Shown: in pieces, positions 32,977 through 64,000 of the stretch
Position numbering within the stretch: the stretch's first letter is position 1
How the letters are laid out: the number at the start of each line of letters is the position of its first letter
Assembly (NCBI RefSeq): GCF_047511655.1
Contig: NC_133389.1
Location: forward strand, 155,759,973-155,823,972
DNA: 64,000 nt
Reading direction: 5' to 3'
Source of the DNA: Castor canadensis
Taxonomy: Eukaryota > Chordata > Mammalia > Rodentia > Castoridae
The notes under the pieces: model-generated
The model's input: only the letters and a program-made list of their open reading frames with translations
What the model was told of the DNA's origin: nothing
Databases searched by the model: none
Position numbers and translations under genes: made by a program

Positions 32977-34044
32977 TCACTGAGCTGTTTCCAGGAGAGA
33001 CAGATTTTTGGTTTCAGAGTTTCTGAGCTGTTCACTGACTGTGCCAGAACAGCTTACTTCACACAGTGTATGCTTTAGTATCTCAGCAACAGAGGCCCTG
33101 AAGCGAGCTTGGAACTTTTTACTAATTAGGACATAAAGGATGGGGTTCAAGCAACTATTAAGGAATGCCAAACCAGTAGAGAGGGGGAGTCCGGCCTGCA
33201 GCACCGGGAGAAAGTAGCTACTATGGTGAATGGTGAGCTCCCAAATGCTAAACAGGTGATAAGGAGTCCAGCAAATCAAAAAGGCCATGACCACAACCAG
33301 GATTGTCCAGAAATGCTTACTGGAAATCAGTATGCTTCTCTTATTCACCTTGAAGATGAGACACAGGTAGCAAATACTCATCGTTAGCAAAGGGAAGAGG
33401 TAGCCGATGATAAATTTCACCCAGGTCAGAACATGGTGCCTCATCAAAGTGAGGTCAGGATCATGCTCGTGGAAATTGTTATAGCAAAGAGTGTGGTTAT
33501 TGAGCTCCAGAGTGTCCCGGAAGTATAGGGCAGGACCACCAATTAGAGAAGCTAAAAGCCAGACAAATAAAACAACAACCAGGGAGTTCCTCAGAGTTCG
33601 ATACCGATGAGACAAGACAGGATGGATCAAGTGGATATAGCGGTCCAGGCTGATCACTGTCAGGAAGAAAACACTAGAAAACATGTTCAACTGGGCAATG
33701 AAGGAATTGGCCTTGCACAACCAAATGCCAAAGGGCCAGTGGAAATTCATGGCCACATAGGAGATGTACAGGGGCAGGAAGAGAACAAAAATGAAATCCG
33801 CAATGGCCAGATTGAGGAACCAGACAGTGGTAACTGTCTTCTTCCACTTAAATCCTGTGAACCAAATGACAATGGCATTTCCTGGAATTCCCAGAACAAA
33901 CGCTAAGCCACATAACACCAGGGAGACCCAGTGAACAACACCTAGGTAGACTTTCTCCTCCAAATCAGATTCCAGAGAATAATATTCCAGGGGATAGGAG
34001 TAGTTCTCAAATTCTTCATACAACGTTTCCTTTAGATCTTCCAT
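32977..34044 (-). CDS. GPR1: GPR1 (CMKLR2), chemerin-receptor-family GPCR
   Basis: A class A seven-transmembrane receptor. GPR1/CMKLR2 binds the adipokine chemerin at the plasma membrane. The 355-residue frame is intact in one exon and equals the human length. Visible marks: an acidic N-terminus with sequon NYS (N14), N56 in TM1, D83 in TM2, the C110-C187 disulfide pair, DRY at 134-136, sequon N183-H-T in the second extracellular loop, CWTP at 258-261 in TM6, NPILY at 300-304 in TM7, and a Ser/Thr-rich tail ending LLETAQ. The start is the ATG that gives the family N-terminus MEDLKETLYEEFENYS. TM3 reads DRY where I recall DHY in human. The gene lies in the GPR1-ZDBF2 domain known to be imprinted in human and mouse. 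Confidence 0.97.
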   Translation of the reverse strand: MEDLKETLYEEFENYSYPLEYYSLESDLEEKVYLGVVHWVSLVLCGLAFVLGIPGNAIVIWFTGFKWKKTVTTVWFLNLAIADFIFVLFLPLYISYVAMNFHWPFGIWLCKANSFIAQLNMFSSVFFLTVISLDRYIHLIHPVLSHRYRTLRNSLVVVLFVWLLASLIGGPALYFRDTLELNNHTLCYNNFHEHDPDLTLMRHHVLTWVKFIIGYLFPLLTMSICYLCLIFKVNKRSILISSKHFWTILVVVMAFLICWTPYHLFSIWELTIHHSSYFLPVLQAGLPLSTGLAFLNSCLNPILYVLISKKFQARFRASVAEILKHTLCEVSCSGTVSEQLRNSETKNLSLLETAQ

Positions 34045-41564: not shown

Positions 41565-41800
41565 GTTTTTTTTTTGTTTTGTTTTGTTTTGTTTTGGCAG
41601 CACTGGATTTTGAAGTCAGGGCCTCATGCTTGCAAGGCAGGCACTCTACCAACTTGAGTCACTCTGCCAAGCCTTTTATTTTAGGTGTTAGGAACTATTT
41701 GCCGGGGCTGCCTTCAGACTGCCATATTCCTGATTTCTGCCTCTTGAGCAGCTAGAATTATAGTCATGAGCCACTGGCTCCCAGCTGTATTTGGTTTTTG
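41565..41800 (-). repeat. Inverted B1-ID SINE
   Basis: (GTTTT)n start, GGCAGCACTGGATTTTGAAG, CACTCTACCAACTTGAGTCA, and the B1 end CTAGAATTATAGTCATGAGC. Confidence 0.75.
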
Positions 41801-52495: not shown

Positions 52496-53654
52496 TATAC
52501 TTATTATCTAACCTGTGGTAGGACTGAGAGGGGGAGAACTGCTTCTGAGCCCCTGACAACATTGTTCTGTAAATTGTTTCTGGGCACAAATGGTTATAGT
52601 GGTAATTACATAGTAAATAATTTAAGTTTATGTAATAATCTTTCATATTTCAAGTCACCTTGTCCCAGAAACAAAGGTGTAGTAATTGAGAAAAATGAAC
52701 CTGATCTTCTAAAGGTCATTAAGTCTGGTGGTTCATAGGAAGGATCGGTGTAAGGTTCCCATGGTCACAAACTGTACAACACAAAAGCAAGTATAGTTAT
52801 GAGGTACTCAAGTTAACTTTCTCAGAAAGTATCTAGGCACTTTCAAAAGCAATATACTGTTCACTGGAACATAATGTAAGTGGTTTATTTCCTGCCAAGG
52901 GCCTCAACAGGCCTTTCATAGAATACAATTCTTTTTAAAGATTCTACCTTTAGAATAGACTCCTGCATTTTTTTCCTCCATATAACAGATTTTTCTCAAA
53001 GGCAATGTCAGACATACTAACCGCCTTAATGAGAAATCCTGATTCTCTGAAACCAAGATTGAATAACTCTTGTGATAACTTATTAAAAGCAAAAAACCAC
53101 AGCAACTTGAAATTCATCTTTCAAAATCACTGAAGAATACTTACATTGTTAATAGACATAGGTATCTCCAATTGAACACATTTTGATTTTGCTGGCATTT
53201 AAGATAAAGTTATGAAGTTATGAAGGTTCTGAAGAAAAAAATCAGAATGGCTATTGACATATTTCTAAAAAATATCTAATTCCATCGTATGAACCTGGAA
53301 AATGGAAGAGAGAGGTCGTGTGCAGCGGGTTCAGTAGAATTACCAGTCGTTTCATTTCAGAATTCACTTAGTGAGCCCCTCAATAAAACTGCGCTAGAAC
53401 TAACTTCGTGCTAAGATTGGAGTACAAAGCCGACACTCCGTCCAGCGGGTTTCCCGGCTGCCTTTGTGCTCAGGCAGCAGTCCCAGGCCCTGGACACTTC
53501 CCTAAGCTGGGCTAATGGCTTTTTCAGGTCTGCCATTAACATCTGGAGAATGGGAATTCTCCCTTTACCAACCAATTTCCAGTCTTTAATCTCGGGAAAT
53601 GCATTTCAGAGTGGAGAGCGATCAGGGGACCTTGCTCTGTTAAAGTGGGTCGGG
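52496..53654. other. Flank of the CpG-rich block
   Basis: Unique-looking. CpG frequency begins to rise from about 53310. A CAATAAAA phrase lies near 53382-53389. No gene recognised. Confidence 0.4.
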
Positions 53655-53882
53655 GTCAGCGGAGTGCTGGTGACTCACACCTTCATCCCAGCTACTCAGG
53701 AGGCAGAAATCTGGGGGAATCCCAGTTGGAAGCCAGTTCAGGAAAGTAGTTCATGAGACCCTATCTCAAAAAATACCCTTCACAAAAAAAGGCTGGAGGG
53801 GTGAGTCAAGTGGTAGAGCGCCTGCCTAGCAAATGCGAGACCACAGTTCAAACCCCAGTACCGCTAAGGCAAAAAAAAAAAA
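53655..53882 (+). repeat. B1-ID SINE at the left edge of the CpG-rich block
   Basis: A B1-ID dimer ending in A12, flanked by AAAGTGGGTCGGGGTC (53641-53656) and AAAGTGGGCGAGGGTC (about 53881-53896), a diverged target-site duplication. The CpG-rich sequence was therefore continuous before the SINE arrived. Confidence 0.75.
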
Positions 53883-54490
53883 AGTGGGCGAGGGTCCGCG
53901 GCCTCTGTCCCCACCATGCGGCTGTGGTGCGGCCTCCTGACACCTGGATCCGGAATCCCGATCTGGCATCGGGAGAACAGCCAGTGTCCCCGTTCCACCC
54001 CCGCCAATGCACACGCCCATCCAGCTATGTCACATGGGTCACTGCTGCCGCCTCCAAACTCGGCCCCAGTGCTGGGGATATGGCTCAAGTGACAAAGCAT
54101 CTGCCGAGGAAGCCCAAGGCCTTGGGTTCAATCCCCAGCACCAAAAACAAAACAAAAACAAAACCCCTTAACCCCCACCATGGTGTTTTCTCCGCTACCA
54201 ACCCCTCCCTCGCTGCACCTTTCCAGGCACAGCCCTGAGCTCGCTCCCGTGAGTGCAATGCACACGTCACTCACTAATGCTAACCCGTGTCACGGCCTTC
54301 TGTTCACACGGATCCCCACCGCCGGAGGGCGGAAAGGGGCTGGAGGGTGACTGCAATTCCTAAAGGCCGAGCGTTCCACCATGCTTCCACAAAAACCCAT
54401 AGTTCCGGCGTGGTGAACACGTGGAGTGCAGAAATGGCGCGGCACAGTCTAGTCTATCTCCTTCCGCGGGGGTGCTCCTGAGTTTTGTTC
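53880..54490. promoter_or_regulatory. Isolated CpG-rich block in the GPR1 5' region (candidate promoter/DMR)
   Basis: By eye about 40 CpGs occur in about 610 bp, while the surrounding 20 kb is CpG-poor. The block is split by an ID SINE at 54065-54160, and a B1-ID dimer ends at its left edge. Two ZFP57-type TGCCGC hexamers are present, at 54046-54051 (plus) and 54439-54444 (minus), with a YY1-like AAATGGCGCGG alongside the second. Placed about 20 kb upstream of the GPR1 coding exon, it sits where the germline DMR and antisense promoter of this domain are expected. No methylation state can be read from sequence. Confidence 0.6.
54065..54165 (+). repeat. ID SINE inside the CpG-rich block
   Basis: GTGCTGGGGATATGGCTCAA to TGGGTTCAATCCCCAGCACC with a (CAAAA)n tail. 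Confidence 0.85.
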
Positions 54491-54600
54491 CCTGTAATGA
54501 TCTGTAATCTTGTATGTGAACTGTTTGCGCTTTACTCCAAGCTATGAAACATGAGAATGACTCTGGAAGCTTCCGATTTATAACCTGGTCATATGTACAG
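54440..54600 (+). ncRNA. Candidate first exon of GPR1-AS/Liz-type transcript
   Basis: Directly downstream of the CpG-rich block a plus-strand segment ends in a perfect donor, ATGTACAG|GTAAGT (junction 54600/54601). A transcript starting in the block and using this donor would run antisense to GPR1 and toward ZDBF2, like GPR1-AS in human and Liz in mouse. In primates that first exon lies in an LTR of the MER21C group. I cannot confirm an LTR here by eye. The exon start is arbitrary and there is no coding content of note. Confidence 0.4.
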
Positions 54601-54601
54601 G

Positions 54602-55610
54602 TAAGTCTGCACTGGCATCTGAAGTAGGGGTGCTGGGGATGGGCAGTCTTGGCGGACTAAGCTATTTCCAGAGGTAGAGAGAGTCATATTTGTAGGATAA
54701 CCTCAATCTGGTGGCGGAAGTGAATCACAATATTCTGAGAGTATTAAGAGAACAGTTTGTTTTTTATACAGGGTCTTATACACAGTAATTGTTACTGTAA
54801 TTTCCTGTTTCTACTCTCCTATGTCCTAACTTCCCTCTTCTCATATGTGCATATTTATCTACTTATTTTTTCTTTCTGGAAATGAAACCAGGGCCTTGTC
54901 CATGCTAGGCAAGCACTCTACCACTAAGCTGCATCCCCAGCTGTTTTTTTTTTTTTTAGACAGTGTCTTCTGTGTAGCCCAGGCTGGCCTGGAGCTCCCC
55001 ATCCTCTTGCCTCCCTCCACTCCCAAATGCTGGGATTCTTGCCCAACCATGCCTTGCTCTTTTATTTATTGTATCTGTACATACAACTTTGCTCTGTTCC
55101 AACCCAACAAACATTTCAAATCAAATACAGTTGTATAATTTTTTTGTAGATTTATTAGTATTATTATTTGCCCAAGATGATCTCAAACTCCAGGGCTCAA
55201 GTGATCCTCCTGCCTTAGCCTCCCCAATACTGACACTACAGGCACATACCACCATGCCTGGGCTGAAATAATTTTTTTTTAGCTGTACTGGGGTTTTGAA
55301 GTTACTGCCTACACTTTGAGCCATTCCACCAGCCCTCTTTTGTGATGGGAGTTTTTTGAGGTAGGGTCTCATGAACTATTTGCCTGGGCTGGCTTCAAAC
55401 TGCAATCTTCCTGATCTTTGTCTTCTGAGTAGCTAGGATTATAGACATGAGTCACTAGTGCCTGGCGGATATGATTTTTTTTTTCTTTTATAACAGGGTC
55501 TCCCTATGTGGCACAGGGTGGCCTTGAACTCTTGATCTCCTGCCTCAGCCTTCCAAGTGCTGGGATTTTATAGGTATGTACCACCATGCCTGACCATAAA
55601 TTTTTTATTT
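54602..55610. repeat. SINE cluster after the candidate antisense exon
   Basis: 54602-54865 shows nothing recognisable. Then inverted ID 54880-54945 and B1 54955-55055, inverted B1 55150-55265, inverted B1-ID 55275-55465, and inverted B1 55490-55600. Confidence 0.7.
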
Positions 55611-55679
55611 GTAATCAGTTCCTGTGTGTTTATCTGTGAGCTAGAAGGAAAACTCACTAGTAAACCATTTTGGGTTGGT

Positions 55680-55760
55680 TGTAAGAATTACACAAGGTAG
55701 CATGTTTAAGATTCCAACAGAGTGCCTGCCTCATAGTAAGAACTCAAAAAACATGATAGT
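55680..55760 (+). repeat. MIR 3' fragment
   Basis: Short match to the MIR end: AGAGTGCCTGCCTCATAGTA followed by AGAACTCAAAAAAC. Confidence 0.5.
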
Positions 55761-56934
55761 GTTCTTATAACCTTGCTCAATTAATCCTTTCATTATTGTG
55801 CATTATAAAATAATTCATATAAATAACATATGGGTATAAAGTTATATAAAGTGCCAAATTCTTGGGTCTACCAGCTAATTTAAAGATCAGTGGCTCTGAG
55901 CAGAGAGCTCATTTGAGGATATAATTTGTTGTTTCCTCTCCCACAACTCCCTACTGGAGACTGAATTCAGGGTCTCCTACTTGCTATCACTTGAACTACA
56001 ACCCAGGCCTTATTTGTTGTTAGGTTTAATAACCTTTTGGATTTAAGAATGGTCAGATACCACCATAAACAACAAGAAAATGGTGTCCTGCTGTTATAGT
56101 AAGCTACATCGTGTGCATACCTTGTTTACCAAAGTAGGACATTCTGATCCTGGGATACTGTTCTAGTAAAAAAAAAAAAAAAAGCTTGTTATTTTGCATC
56201 AAATCACTCCGTGGATGAGTTCATTTCTAGTGGTGAATATCAGAACAACAAGCTGAGCTACTTGCTGAGGTCTCATGACTCATTGTAACCCGGCTGGTTT
56301 GAGAATAGCTCAATTATCTGCCTCAGTGAAAGAGAAATTCTGTCTGGGCACTCTCTTAAGTTTGATGAGTATATTACACACTGATTGCTTCACAAAAATT
56401 TAGAAAGCAAGAAATGGCCATTTTGTAGGAAATTACTGAGTAGCGCCCAATTTGAGGTTTCACTTATAATAGCTAGAAAAGTTTTTAAATCAAGCTTTCA
56501 CTTATATATAAGACTGAGACAAATGAATGTGAATATTCTTGTGAATATTCTAATATAAATTTAAAATGTTTAGATATTCTGTATAATCATTTCTTTTCTA
56601 CCTGTGTTTTGGGAGCTACAATATGTTTCTGAGCAAAACTGGAAACACCACTTTTATGAGTTTGCTATATTACAATCCTTCTTAGACGACAAGCAGTTTT
56701 AACCATGTGCTGTAATTCAACACCCCCCCTTTTTTTTTTCCCAGTAAACTCCCCAAAGCAAAAGGCAGAAGAGAGAAAATCCCCATGTTTATAGGTGAAA
56801 TATCTTTTGAGAGCAAGGCATCTCTCCTGACAAGGAACAAAGACTTTATCTAGGATTCTTTTAACTGTTACCTAAAATTGACCTAACTTCTTTGATTAGT
56901 GAATATAAGGAACTGCAGTTGCTAAATATACACC
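55761..56934. other. No recognisable feature
   Basis: AT-rich unique-looking sequence. An inverted ID remnant may lie at 55945-56010. No gene recognised. Confidence 0.4.
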
Positions 56935-57065
56935 GAGCTTGCCTTATTCACGGATTTATTACATGTGATTTTGACCAAGCATGGTCAAAAAATAATAAAT
57001 TTAAAAATTCAACAGAAATTTCATAAGCAAAAATTGTAAATTCCCATAGACATTATGTAGTTCAG
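56935..57065 (+). mobile_element. TcMar-Tigger-like DNA transposon fragment
   Basis: CTTGCCTTATTCACGGAT and AAGCATGGTCAAAAAATAAT, followed by AATTTCATAAGCAAAAATTG, resemble the subterminal part of Tigger-group elements. Diverged. Confidence 0.45.
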
Positions 57066-57099
57066 TCAGTCCCAGGTTATGTTCAGTTGAGTTTAAATT

Positions 57100-57195
57100 G
57101 CCATGTGCGGCTGGTGGAGTGGCTCAAGTGGTACAGCACCGGCCTAGCAAGCACGAGGACCTGGGTTCAAACCCCAGTACTGCCAAAAAAATAAT
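57100..57195 (+). repeat. ID-type SINE unit
   Basis: GGCTGGTGGAGTGGCTCAAG to GGTTCAAACCCCAGTACTGC, a well preserved copy. Confidence 0.85.
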
Positions 57196-57303
57196 AATTG
57201 TGTGTGATGTTTCCCTGTCCTAATTTTGTGAAAATCTGCTTCCCCAAACTCAAATGGTATCCAAAAAGCAAGTTAAAAATGAACGTACTTAGTTTTTTTT
57301 TTT

Positions 57304-57640
57304 CTGCAAGAATGTGGGCTTGTTTTATTTGATAAAATGAAAATCTGAGATTAGCTGAAAGATGGCGTCTTCATTGGAAGTTGGGCAGTGTCGTGGTTGA
57401 AACGAGCCGAGCATGCGCAGTACAGCACTGACCGCTGCACGTCCTGAGCATGCGCGGTTTTCCTCCAGGGCGCTCTTTGAAGCCATAGAGCTTATACCAA
57501 GCCTCTGCTGTACTTTTGTGTATGTGTGTGAGTGTAATAATAAAATCAGAGGTAAATGATTTTATTTTAGTGAAGTAAAAGCCCTTGCGGGGCAGAATGA
57601 CAATTAGAAGAAAGGTCATGGGTAAGGTTAAAAACACAAT
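57304..57640 (-). pseudogene. Unidentified processed-retrocopy-like segment
   Basis: Read on the minus strand the segment ends in AATAAA (57329-57324), then about 20 bases, then an 11-base A run (57303-57293). This is the signature of a reverse-transcribed polyadenylated RNA. Upstream it is CpG-containing and open for 88 codons, but I recognise no protein. Within it are two GCATGCGC motifs (57411 and 57448) and an AAGATGGCG motif (57359-57367). It may instead be a small promoter next to an old repeat. Confidence 0.35.
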
Positions 57641-58654
57641 TGGATGATAGAATAAATATCAACATACCTGCCGTAAGTTAACCATATAATTGATTTGATT
57701 AAGCTTTTATTTTCTAAACTTGGTCTTACTTCCGTAAATAAACTCTCCCCTGATCTTCACAAACCTGTGCCCCATAAATCAGAGTCCTTACTCTACACCC
57801 TTTACTTCTAAGTGAATTGTTACTTAGGTTCTTGAATGCTTATTTGATGAATGTCTGTCTCCTTCACCAGACTGTAGTTTTGCTTTCCTTTATGCCCCCA
57901 GAGCCCAGCTCAGTGCCTGGAAAACGGGAGGGTTCATTCATATGTACTGAGTGACCAAGAGACCGCTGGGTGGGAGGGTTGAAAAAAGTCATCTATGCCC
58001 GGGGAACTTGCCTTAAGTATATGAAAAGACAAAGGTGGATTGAGAAGGGGATTGAAGTTCTTTGTTATCATCAAACCCATTAGTTTCTGGGCTCGGATCC
58101 TTTCTTATAAAAGGGTTTAAAAGAGTCAGGAGCCTGTGGCTCACGCCTGTAATCTTAGCTACAAAGAAGGCAAGGATCAGGAGAATCATGGTTCCAAGTC
58201 AGCCGGGCAAATAGATCTCAAAACCCTATTTTTTACCCAACACAAAAAAGGCTGGCTGGCGGAGTGACTCAGATGGTAAAGTGCTTGTCAATCAAGCATG
58301 AGGTGCTGAGTTCAAACCCCAATAACAAAAAAAGAAAGAAAAGAATGTTGAGTACCTAGGAAATCTAGTCTCATTTCTGAGCGATGTGTTAAATCTGTTC
58401 AGCCCTCCATTAGACTTTTGATTGACAGCAGGCCCCATTTCCAGGGAAAGAGGATGAGATTTCTCTCAAACTATTGGCAAGAGTAAGCAGTGTCTTTACA
58501 AGTAGTTATAAATGTCCAATCAGGAGGTGCTTATAGGGCAAACCAGTTTACCTAACTGCATTCAAAAGGAAGCAAACACCAACCATGCCTAATTGCATAA
58601 GTAGCATTTAACACATTTAAATGCTGAGTACTTGTTAAATACAAAACAGTGCTG
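57641..58654. other. GPR1 5' region
   Basis: Forward B1-ID dimer at 58130-58345. The rest is unique-looking, with a phrase like a MIR or L2 at 57850-57955 (AGAGCCCAGCTCAGTGCCTG). Confidence 0.5.
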
Positions 58655-58800
58655 ACCAGCTTCTCGTGCATTTTCACAGTTAATTCTCACAACAATCCTG
58701 TGAGGGACTATCATTATTTCCATGAGGCTAGGAGAGGCTGGCTAACTGGCAAAAGTGGTAAAACCCAGACCACCATCTGTCTGACTTCAGGGGCTCTCTT
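58655..58800 (-). repeat. MIR SINE
   Basis: Reverse MIR: TTAATTCTCACAACAATCC, CTGTGAGGGACTATCATTAT, then ACCATCTGTCTGACTTCA. Confidence 0.75.
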
Positions 58801-60954
58801 CTTCATCCTATCCACCCAGTCTCTGTGTAGCAATCATCTGTTAAGGTGTGTATCTCCATGACTAGCCTGTGAGAACCTCATGGGGAGGGCCTACCTTTCA
58901 CTTATCCGACTATGTCTAGATGGAACAGAGCGCCTGTGTATTGTAGACAATTAATGTCAGTGAATAGAGCAGCAAGCACTCGATCATCAAAACTATATTA
59001 CAAGGCAGGAATGGAAGGACATGCCTGCAATCCTCCAGAATCTGAAGCAGGAGGATTGTGAGTTCAAGGTCAGTCTAGGCTACCTAGGGAGACCCTGTCT
59101 CAAAAAAAAAAAAAAAAACAGAACAAAACCAAACTACATTGTTTAGTATGACTGAAATGTTGAATACATTTAACTACATACTATGTAGAAATAAAATATA
59201 AAATAAATATTTATATGATAAGATAAATGATTATATGTAAATACATCTTATTTGCCTTTAAATTATTAATTCATGGGTCTTTTTTTTTTTTTTTTTTTTT
59301 GTTAGGGTCTTGCTTTGTAGCTCAGGTTGGGCTTCAAACTCAAGATCATCCTGCCTTAGCCTCCTGAGTTCTGGATGACAAGAATGTGCCACCACGCCTG
59401 GCTTAATCCATATTTTATTTTGAAGCATAAGAACCTGCCATTATGTTAGGTCAGATAGTCTAATAATAGCACTTTTATATGGTACTGCCTAATAAGTAAA
59501 AATCTATCTGGGAGCTAGTGACTAATGCCTATAATCCTAGCTTCTTGGGAGGCCGAGATTGGAAGGCTTAAATTTTGAGGCCATACTAGTCAAATAGTTC
59601 GGGAGACCCCATCTCCAAAATAACTGATGCAAAAGGACTGGAGGTGTGGCTCAAGTGGTAGAGTAACTGCTTTATAAGCATGAAGTCCTGAGTTCAAACC
59701 CAAGTCTCACCAAAACAAACAACAAACAAAAAACTTATGTGAACCCTTACTTATATAATTATCAAAATGCTCCATTACCAGATTTTTTCTATCAGAGGTT
59801 CATCATTATAAACAGAGAAAAACATTTTTTGAAAAGTTAAGGATGTCCTATCTATAAGCACCTTCTTCTAGGTTCAATGATCAATGTGGATGTATTTTAC
59901 TATTTTTCATGCTGCTCGGGACAGTGAACATTCGGCCAGGCACATGTGTCTTAGACTTGGCTTGGGTTCTTATCTCTCCCATGATGCTAAGTTGCATACC
60001 AAAGTCCTTCTCCACCAGTCCACCCTTTTTAGCATGAACACTGCGTTTATCCCAAGCCCTAGTGTTTCTCAAGTGCTTTTGTGTTGATTAGATTGCACGT
60101 TAATAATGGTCACTTTTTGCTGAATATTGATCTTACTGTATCTGACTATGTAGAGCATTTGCAGTGGAGCAACTATTTACAATGGAACAATGCTATATAA
60201 CTCATTCCCTTATTACGCCAAGTGATGGTTGACTGTAGTAATTAGTAACTTTTGTTTTTGCATAAAAAAATCAGAAAATTAGCACTGCAGCGGTGACCCT
60301 GGATGCCATGTCAAGCCCAAGTGGGATCTGCTTTGTTTCTTCTCGATTCCTAAGAGAGGACTGTGGCTTCTCCTTATTGAATTCCTTATGTGCCAAACTT
60401 TATGAAATGAATTACTTTATAAATGTTTTACCTTTCACCGAACACCTAGGAATTGCCTTCTATTTTTGGTATTCCAGGAATATCTACCTAATCCCATTGG
60501 TGAATTTAAACTCTTTGCCTACTCAGTCTTCAATTTTAAATTCCACTTAAATCACAGTCCACTTGGGAATATCCTGGTCCTAGTTGAATTGGCCTGTGTT
60601 TGATCACTGCTCTATTATCTGGCATGATTAAATTCTGAAATACGTATGTAGGAGCAACATTGAGCTAACAGGTTTTGAGAATTTAAGCTAGATCCTTTAG
60701 TGCACATTGCAGTAAAGGTTAGGATTTGTGGATGGTACTGAGCATGTTGTAAGGGAAGAGCACAGTGAAAAACGTAAACTATGTAAACATATTTTTGTTG
60801 AAACCTGAAATTTTTCTTGTCACAGAGTACAAATGGAGTAGCATTTAGAGTTTTAACTCAGGATTCAATAGAGTGTACCTGTTGGCTGGTACACTGGCTG
60901 CTCTCTTGGCCCAACAAATATATCATACCTAGAAGAATTTTCTAGAAAAGAACA
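58801..60954. other. GPR1 5' region, SINEs and unique sequence
   Basis: Forward B1 59005-59120 with A17; inverted B1 59280-59405 with T22; forward B1-ID 59510-59725. 59730-60950 has no recognisable gene or repeat. Confidence 0.5.
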
Positions 60955-61050: not shown

Positions 61051-62514
61051 GTGCATTCCCTCCATGCAGCCAGATGCCCAAGAGGAAAGTCACCTTAGCT
61101 GAAGGGACAGTGGTGAGATCAGAGGGCTTCTCAGCTAAATCTACTACTGTACAACTGCAAATGAAGTAAAAAAGGGCAGCAGGAAAGGATGAATCTACAA
61201 CAAAAACGTGTGAACAAAAGGAGACTGAGGGAAAATAGGCTGAAGAGGCTTACCAAGAAACAAGAGATTCACTTGCAGAAAAAGGGGAAACTAAAAATAA
61301 GGAGAGGCTGGCATCTAATGAAGTCAGAGAAATAGAAACCAAGTCTAATTGATACCATATAACCTGTATTCCTTAACAGATGTCCATCTCCCTTCTACAG
61401 TCAGAGGAACAGCTGAGTTTTTTAAGATGGAGGGAATTGTATATCCCATTCTAAAATGTAAATGTTTTTCTTTTGGAAGGCAAAATCGTTTGTTGGTTCT
61501 GAGTTTTCTTTTTTTTTTTTTTTTTTCAGTACAACCAGAAAACAGTGAGCTAATGAATTATGGGAGGATTTGTGGTCTTGGGGTCTGCTTACCATTCTCT
61601 GTTGGGGGAGGGGACAGGTAGTGTGGTGGTAGCTTTTATATCCTATAATACAAAGCTGTAGTGAATTGCTGAACCTTATGCTGCTGCAGTATCCATTTTG
61701 AATGTAAATTGGACTTAGTCATACCAAAAGCAGGGCTTAGTCAGCCTTGACAGTTTCTAGTTTTCCTGGTTCCTCAAGGTGATGGATACAGATTCCTGCC
61801 TTATACAGCTGCCTCCAGCAGACAGCTAGATACAACCTACTTGCTTCACCCCACTGATGCCCACACCCTGTGTGGACAGTGCAAATAAGCCACACTAGTT
61901 ACCTCTCAAGTCACAGAGTGTCTCACAGAACTTTAGCCCGCTGGCCCTAAATCCACAAATTTTAACCCCCCATGGGAAACATGGTTGGGGACACCTTGGA
62001 CCCAGTAACCTGTGGGTCCCTGGTGTTTCTGCGCCTTTGGCACTGCAGGAGTGTGTGTGTTCCAGGTGACTTCCCCTCCCCATGGGCTGTGCAGAGCTTG
62101 CTCCCCTCTGCTCTCTGGGCTCTGTAATTACTACAGTGCTTGTGTTGTTTCACTCTCTTTGTTGTGCTGCCGCTTCTGCTTCTCATCTGACCTACACACT
62201 TGAACTCTCCTCCTGATCAGGGCTCTCCTAGAGAGTGGCTTTTTTCATAGGAATAAACTGGACAAAAGATACACAAGAGCCACAGGATTCTGCCATACAG
62301 ACAGACCCAACTTGAATATTTAGACTTTAGGTTGGGGAAAGCAACATGCATTTAAAAGAAACTGGACTGGATTATTTGAATTTTGATCTTTTTCTGTGCT
62401 AGCAAGCGATGCGCAGAAGTATGTACTCTTCAGATGCAGGGCAGGGCATGGAACCATAGCTCTCAGTCAGCCATGCAATCATGATAGAAAAACCATACTC
62501 TCTAGTGCACTGTG
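61051..62514. other. Unassigned sequence, partly LTR-like
   Basis: No gene recognised. 61800-62250 has pyrimidine-rich, TSS-like stretches that recall LTRs, but no family can be named. Confidence 0.3.
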
Positions 62515-62640
62515 TTGCTAAGCAACGATGTTCAGTAGGTTACGCATATTCAATCTGTTTTCAATTTAAAATGTTTTCAGCTTACAATGAGTTTATCAGG
62601 TTGTAACCCTCTCATAAATCCAAGAACATCTGTATAAACA
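62515..62640 (+). mobile_element. TcMar-Tigger-like fragment
   Basis: TTTTCAGCTTACAATGAG, TTTATCAGGTTGTAACCC and AATCCAAGAACATCTGTAT match the other terminal region of Tigger-group elements. The copy may belong with that at 60955, about 1.5 kb away. Confidence 0.55.
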
Positions 62641-62869
62641 AATTTCCTTTGCAAAGGACACCTGGTCGCAGGTTGGACACTTAAGTATTAGGCCAGGCTA
62701 AAGAAGTATCCAGAGAAAGGCACTGGAACATCTATGACACCTTCCCTGGAGCCTGCCAGGTGAAGAACTAGGTCCTGCTCTCTTTTTCAGGATCAAATTA
62801 GAGGATGATATAATGGAGCAAGGAGAGGTTTGTGGTCATGAAGACAAGGAGCACAATAAAAGGCCCTGG

Positions 62870-63480
62870 TCCTGCCTTTAGCCTTTTGTGTGGTTTTCCC
62901 ACAAGGCCCCCACTGCACACAGAAGCAGGTCTGTCACTCTGCTGCACAGCACCTCTGCCTCCTGTGGCCTACCCCTTGTTCACCCCAAAGGGTCACTGTT
63001 GTTGTTGTCAGTGAAAGTCCTTGTAGAGAGAGCAAATTGCCCCAACTCCTGCTCTAACAGGGAGAGCATGCCACACAGAGGTCCCAGACTGACAGGAGGC
63101 AGGACTGAAGACAGGGTCAGGAGAGTTGAGGAGCCTGGGTCAGACAGTGAGGCCATGACCTCTACTCTGATGACACTAATGGCTGAAGGTATTCGGGAAA
63201 TTAATTTCCATAGCAAGGGAACAGGAGACATCCCCTCCTGTCACCGCTGAGCTGGAGTCATAGCAGGAACTCACATCTTGATCTCAGTAGGAATAATCAT
63301 CTTGGGACGGAGCCGATCACATCGCCACAGGGGAATAAAGTGGAAGTTTGGGATTTCTCCTTGGGGTCTTTCTTGGGTTCTGTCATTCTTTGTCCCCCTG
63401 ACCCCAAGGAGCACAGCTGAGAGATAGAGAGGCAGCTGTGAACAGGGCCAGTGAAAACATGAAATGGAGGCTTCTGCTCA
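62870..63480 (+). mobile_element. ERV LTR-like segment (uncertain)
   Basis: An AATAAA near 63335 is followed by TTTGGGATTTCTCCTTGG, GGTCTTTCTTGGGTTCTGTC and ATTCTTTGTCCCCC, a layout like an LTR R-U5 end. No primer-binding site or viral gene is visible. The 120-codon open frame inside is not recognised. The preceding 61.8-62.25 kb also has an LTR-like look. Confidence 0.3.
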
Positions 63481-63599
63481 ACAACAGGGGTAACTTGCTG
63501 TCACCAAGAGTGAGGCAAAGTCCAAGAGAGGGAAAAATATTTCAGCCACATAAAAACATAAGCACATCTGTAAACTACAGATTTTAAACAGTGATGCTG

Positions 63600-63685
63600 A
63601 AGACGTGTGTCAGTGGCAGAGGATGTCTTAGCATGTGCAAAATCTAGGTTTGAGCCACAGTACTGAAGAAAAAAAAAAAAAAAGG
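63600..63685 (+). repeat. ID SINE
   Basis: Diverged ID monomer (GTGTGTCAGTGGCAGAGGAT to TTTGAGCCACAGTACTG) with an A15 tail. Confidence 0.65.
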
Positions 63686-63849
63686 AGATGTGGTACTAGT
63701 TATGTGACCTCAAAAGCAAATGTGAAAAAATAGATATTTACAAAACTAAACCATACTAAATCACAATTTGGAATCACAATCTGCAGTTACTATGTTGAAT
63801 GTTTTCAATTAATTGTACTCTCATATTGTTTTTAAGAGAATTATTTCCT

Positions 63850-63960
63850 AAAGAAAACCTCTCCTGATCAAGGGACACTGTGCCCACCTATAGAAATCCC
63901 TTTGTATAATTATTGTATGCTAATAAAAAATAAATACATACAAATAAAAATTTTAAAAAA
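63850..63960 (+). mobile_element. L1 3'-end-like fragment
   Basis: Contains ATCCCTTTGTATAATTATTG and TATGCTAATAAAAAATAAAT, the same terminal sequence as the L1 end near 46260. Confidence 0.5.
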
Positions 63961-64000
63961 GAAAAGCCGTCCTTCCTCTGGGCTCTCCCTGTCACTGTCA

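Follow-up and report, generated by a model that had tools for sequence, protein, structure and literature searches.

Does the North American beaver, Castor canadensis, carry a GPR1-AS/Liz promoter, and can the DNA from which it was made still be recognised? In human, other primates and rabbit, the first exon of GPR1-AS (CMKLR2-AS) lies in a long terminal repeat (LTR) of the MER21C type, and the LTR of the mouse is too degraded for recognition, at 46% to MER21C, according to the text available to us of PMC12129452. Methylation of the GPR1-AS promoter is absent in sperm and present in oocytes (PMC12129452; PMC5106035; both in the available parts). ZDBF2 imprinting has been proposed to go back to a single LTR insertion, in an ancestor shared by primates, rodents and rabbits, and under this model a beaver member is expected (PMC12129452, available text). 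The beaver is absent from the 24 genomes of that study, as its available text gives them, and eight other rodents are included, so a preliminary description of the DNA analysed here was right to speak of another rodent lineage. Here, we describe a block of DNA in a GPR1 intron, made of CpG-rich DNA joined to a shortened sense LTR, that is probably the GPR1-AS/Liz promoter and first exon of the beaver. We also describe a mirrored arm carrying a second copy of it, which is the part of the locus that a specialist would not expect.

Results

The window is the whole stretch of 64,000 nucleotides that was analysed, from contig NC_133389.1; extended coordinates carry its numbering on past 64000. Genes follow in the order NDUFS1 (minus strand), EEF1B2 (plus, placed by SNORD51 and SNORA41), GPR1 (minus), the CpG-rich block and ZDBF2 (plus). 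The GPR1/CMKLR2 coding exon (32980-34044, minus strand) encodes 355 aa, is at 89% to mammalian chemerin-like receptor 2, and matches chemerin-like receptor 2 chains in phmmer with an E-value of 1.6e-198. ZDBF2 coding exons lie at extended 129527, 148291 and 154076 on the plus strand, and the ZDBF2 exon past the window has 100% identity to Castor canadensis ZDBF2 over the 1,200 residues compared. A large ZDBF2 CpG island (extended 119901-122800) is found about 66 kb beyond the block. The GPR1 coding exon and the block are about 20 kb apart, with the block upstream, antisense to GPR1 and reading toward ZDBF2, and in this the spacing, position and polarity of the preliminary description are confirmed. 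The 5' exon of GPR1 presumably lies on the far side of the block.

Elsewhere at the locus, extended 64401-65900, just past the window end, holds 44 CpG in 1.5 kb and is a possible GPR1 promoter. Rfam gives 11 tRNA matches in the window at 30-41 bits (e.g. 2804-2876, 41595-41668 and 57113-57185), which are probably not tRNA genes since those inspected sit in tRNA-derived SINEs. Long repeats with a mutual similarity of 67-98%, containing open frames of 200-317 aa, occur at extended 73600-80100, 127460-127918 and 177300-181000 and are LINE-like by appearance.

The CpG-rich promoter candidate occupies 53285-54510 on the plus strand and, with two later SINEs included, contains 51 CpG in 1,226 bp, an observed/expected ratio (o/e) of 0.57. 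The richness in CpG noted earlier is therefore real, but the block is 1.2 kb long and interrupted by SINEs, not 0.6 kb. With the SINEs left out, o/e is 0.57 in its left, 0.69 in its middle and 0.72 in its right part. The 727 bp of 53880-54606 contain 36 CpG. Their o/e is 0.64, compared with 0.14 for the non-SINE background of the window, and among stretches of this length in the window they rank second, behind the NDUFS1/EEF1B2 island (57 CpG) and ahead of the next (17 CpG). A genome search with the left CpG part (53285-53656, plus strand) yielded two candidates, both of which matched: the query itself and, at 83%, the mirrored copy. This makes just two copies among the candidates. SINE 1 (53657-53886, plus strand; from self-repeat matches; o/e 0.29) is without a SINE counterpart at the corresponding position in the other arm, and SINE 2 (54066-54166, plus strand; about 40 genome matches; o/e 0.16) corresponds there to an interval of 0 bp. 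Both insertions postdate the inverted duplication.

The block was said to stand alone, which is true inside the window, but a mirrored CpG-rich copy is present 45 kb further on, outside it. This copy belongs to the second arm of an inverted repeat, between GPR1 and ZDBF2, and is directed at GPR1; outside its LTR part, it has 44 CpG in 803 bp (o/e 0.77). Arm A was delimited by collinear minus-strand matches and has two parts on the plus strand, 52616-60876 (partner extended 101135-95296, at a distance of 31-37 kb beyond the window) and 61124-64000, on to extended 64789 (partner extended 107917-103652), which are transposed in the second arm. By a three-state split whose rates are our own, the arm-to-arm columns comprise 2,965 at 96.8% identity, 3,778 at 69.7% identity and 1,719 that are not truly alignable. 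Poly-A runs of 16 and 17 A fall within the near-identical patches, whose edges are abrupt, and one patch ends at the SINE 1 insertion. The arms share one SINE, at a corresponding site (58132-58340). The SINEs at 53657, 54066 and 57109 are missing from the other arm, and those at 55326 and 59514 fall within non-aligning stretches. With one SINE in common and several unshared, the duplication is therefore placed after the onset of the spread of such SINEs and before the later ones. In our reading, gene conversion has probably acted on an old duplication to produce the mosaic of the arms. The near-identical patches could alternatively reflect selection on enhancers, and mouse enhancers do lie between the Liz and Gpr1 promoters (PMC6488298, available part). 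Our literature search found no report of a ZDBF2 inverted repeat or mirrored copy, and nothing on ZDBF2 in Castor canadensis.

The right end of the block is a 5'-shortened LTR in sense orientation (54312-54707, plus strand), recognised by nhmmer and by its dispersed relatives. It includes the splice donor and makes up at most 289 bp of the candidate exon 1, directly before the donor. A genome search with the original block was swamped by SINE 2, and the SINE-free mirrored copy gave three dispersed matches just upstream of the donor place. Further genome searches with the loci L027 and L026 gave at least 41 matches each, L026 itself included, with 40 of 64 and 40 of 144 candidates scored, respectively. 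In single-sequence nhmmer comparisons with 33 loci, collected via the mirrored copy and L027 and not randomly, the right part of the block matched L026 (E 4.2e-8), L042 (E 6.5e-8) and L047 (E 1.5e-6), and the mirrored copy as query reached E 8e-25. By our own scaling, the best E-value of the block, 4.2e-8, corresponds to about 1e-3 for the genome. Twenty-four of 32 dispersed loci could be mapped to the mirrored copy (E <= 1e-6; L028 was omitted, being L027's own place). In all 22 loci chosen, the longer of 30 LTR envelopes and entered by hand, the sense orientation of 54312-54707 outscored the antisense, and this sense excess was absent from the pieces upstream of 54312, the piece after 54720 and two controls. 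When the left, middle and 54167-54311 CpG parts were compared with the LTR family, two pieces came slightly above shuffles (P 0.01 and 0.04), which we take as an effect of composition.

A genome search with the LTR part of the block alone found only the mirrored copy and no dispersed copy. Complete ends of this LTR were not found, and its 5' part is unrecognisable; for a target-site duplication of 4, 5 or 6 bases with TG..CA there were 3, 1 and 0 matches, and shuffled sequence gave 3.33, 0.81 and 0.25. Its 3' end is marked by a degraded stretch resembling a primer-binding site (54709-54723, plus strand), with 2 changes of 13 from TGGTGTCAGAAGT; a similar site within 2 changes occurs in 10 of 24 relatives, and the mirrored copy has 1 change. 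We take this site to be of the tRNA-Leu type, and tRNA-Leu priming to be presumably that of ERVL elements. In the available parts of the sources, MER21C is class I (PMC1781489) and MER21 LTRs are listed together with MER21I (PMC5753468), and MER21C is therefore neither supported nor excluded as the source. Eight of 24 relatives, and the mirrored copy, retain the AATAAA of the LTR type; the block has AATGAT instead, so that read-through would be favoured.

Sense bias, dispersed copies and the primer-like site together argue for an exon-1 tail and donor that were made by an LTR and lie in the sense of GPR1-AS. What is new here is that this tail, with its donor, is a shortened sense LTR of an interspersed retroviral family. 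The LTR-derived first exon proposed in the preliminary description thus holds for 54312-54707 and the donor, but not for the CpG-rich DNA upstream, which has no clear family match; that kilobase may be either something else or too changed for recognition.

An old LTR that keeps its CpGs is as expected if it has been spared from methylation in a germ line. Across the stretch homologous to 54312-54510, CpG density per 100 bp is 6.03 in the block, 2.70 in the mirrored copy and 0 to 2.05 in 28 dispersed copies; these 28 are the ones with enough aligned columns among 30 LTR envelopes, of which L026 and L027 are inflated by self-match. A motif scan found the ZFP57 hexamer TGCCGC with C (Y form) at 54046-54051 on the plus strand, and followed by G (R form) at 54439-54444 on the minus strand, within the LTR part. 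Two of the three in the window fall within 53285-54720 (0.53 expected, P 0.07). In the same interval, VCGGAA cores of the ETS type (that of ELF1/ELF2, whose site is shared between species in the known system) number five where 1.61 would be expected (P 0.03, with 18 patterns tried and no correction), and the strong ETS site CCGGAAGT is absent. TGCACAC, which we take to be the ZSCAN4 core, is present three times against 0.23 expected, a count that 0 of 300 shuffles reach (18 patterns tried, uncorrected). In the block, TFAP2, NRF1 and YY1 patterns do not rise above expectation, and the CTCF consensus has no match. For the mouse Gpr1 DMR, three TGCCGC are reported, with ZFP57 bound on the maternal allele (PMC4491874, available part).

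The candidate exon ends at 54600, in CAG/GTAAGT, with the donor GTAAGT at 54601-54606 on the plus strand. Scored with donor frequencies, it reaches 8.5 and ranks first of the 6,636 GTs on both strands of the window, so the perfect donor of the preliminary description is indeed there. The sequence CAGGTAAGT has a single occurrence on both strands of the 64 kb, at 54598; by composition, about 0.66 perfect donor 9-mers are expected in the window and 0.003 in 600 bp of one strand. In none of the 24 mapped LTR relatives does CAGGTAAGT occur; a GT stands at the corresponding position in 11 of them, a position that is only roughly mapped where the locus is weak. At the donor place, L042 and the mirrored copy have CAGGTAACA, and therefore the donor of the block looks built from an LTR precursor. 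Near the block, the best minus-strand donors score 4.1 (52658) and 3.8 (54319).

Over a scan of 184 kb, one donor, at extended 107775, outscores that of the block. It lies in the second arm on the plus strand, reads CAG/GTGAGT (score 8.99) and is directed at ZDBF2; its first-arm partner is window 61272, which reads CAAGTGAAT.

An alignment to the mouse Gpr1 DMR, to which the preliminary description had looked, did not succeed: compared in bisulfite space with 6,126 scan windows on both strands of the 184 kb, the mouse amplicon (PMC4491874, as given in the available part) showed no homology, and the block ranked 30 of 6,126. The top place was the ZDBF2 CpG island, and neither flanking primer selects the block. 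For the 81-base mouse amplicon the mirrored copy, in its own sense, was the second-best place, falling to rank 28 once the sequencing primer was added.

Discussion

The gene order and strands, the CpG block, the best donor of the window, the LTR tail and the retention of CpGs all support the identity of the block as the GPR1-AS/Liz promoter and first exon. Position, polarity, CpG retention, donor and sense LTR fit the reading of the preliminary description, and homology to the mouse amplicon does not join them. Since the exon tail is an LTR with its CpGs kept, that candidate is real and stronger than sequence alone could show, and it is still a prediction. By analogy, we infer that the block would be transcribed, would be methylated with a parental bias and would be orthologous to the human MER21C insertion. 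After mouse and human, it would be methylated in the oocyte and unmethylated in sperm, and after fertilisation the paternal block would start a plus-strand transcript. The LTR-derived donor 54600/54601 would close exon 1, from where the RNA would run and splice toward ZDBF2. Upstream of ZDBF2, this transcription would set a secondary methylation mark on the paternal allele and so bring about paternal expression of ZDBF2, which is the prediction for the beaver.

The mirrored arm might itself be part of the imprinting machine, as a second CpG-rich GPR1-AS promoter module between GPR1 and ZDBF2. The mirrored copy could then drive a transcript in the oocyte that runs across the block and leads to its methylation, and arm-to-arm gene conversion could keep the CpG-rich patches of both copies alike. 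We hold this joint reading to be rather unlikely; if it is true, a two-armed control element would run beaver ZDBF2 imprinting. The mirrored copy and its near-identical patches allow a test of whether duplication of an imprinting promoter is possible, with gene conversion maintaining the likeness of the copies.

Among explanations that compete with a GPR1-AS/Liz promoter, the one that survives best takes the block as the relic of an ancestral LTR promoter that is unused in the beaver, with the mirrored copy or neither driving the transcript, and with the CpGs and identity patches of the block maintained by conversion with that copy. Consistent with it, 53350-53657 and 54213-54309 share 92-99% identity with the mirrored copy against a background of 70%, and outside its LTR part the mirrored copy is the more CpG-rich of the two. 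However, the mirrored copy is directed away from ZDBF2, its donor is weak (2.7 versus 8.5), and its LTR part falls below that of the block in CpG density. The CpGs of the block do not come from recent conversion, because its LTR part and the mirrored copy share only about 64% similarity. As a whole, this explanation seems quite unlikely to us. An alternative promoter or enhancer of GPR1 on the minus strand, in place of an antisense promoter, would suit a block within the GPR1 transcription unit, and CpG-rich DNA can fire both ways, but a good minus-strand donor is lacking nearby (4.1 and 3.8 against 8.5 on the plus strand) and the LTR part is in plus sense, which makes it very unlikely. It is highly improbable that the block is a CpG-rich relic lying by chance at an old LTR with a chance donor and without a regulatory role, since even with a common LTR family (144 first-look candidates for L026) and a donor 9-mer expected about 0.66 times in the window, CpG retention is far above that of 28 relatives, the donor is placed at the right-hand end of the CpG-rich DNA, and place and orientation match the published GPR1-AS.

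Inverted repeats (palindromes) with arm-to-arm gene conversion occur on sex chromosomes. Like these, the beaver locus has two facing arms with near-identical tracts; unlike them, its arms are mostly about 70% alike, with parts transposed in one arm, an inner distance of about 30 kb and a location at an imprinted locus of autosomal type. The probable beaver GPR1-AS shares with those of human, other primates and rabbit its place in a GPR1 intron, its antisense direction to GPR1 and toward ZDBF2, its CpG richness and an LTR in the first exon, whose share is similar (at most 289 bp in the beaver, 218-506 bp in the overlaps published in the available part of PMC12129452). It differs from them in the mirrored second copy, and in being known from sequence alone. 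With mouse Liz/Zdbf2linc, as described in the available parts of PMC12129452, PMC6488298 and PMC4491874, it has in common its place, polarity, CpG richness and TGCCGC hexamers. In the mouse, the LTR is nearly erased, whereas in the beaver it can still be recognised, and the beaver would thus offer a readable rodent intermediate.
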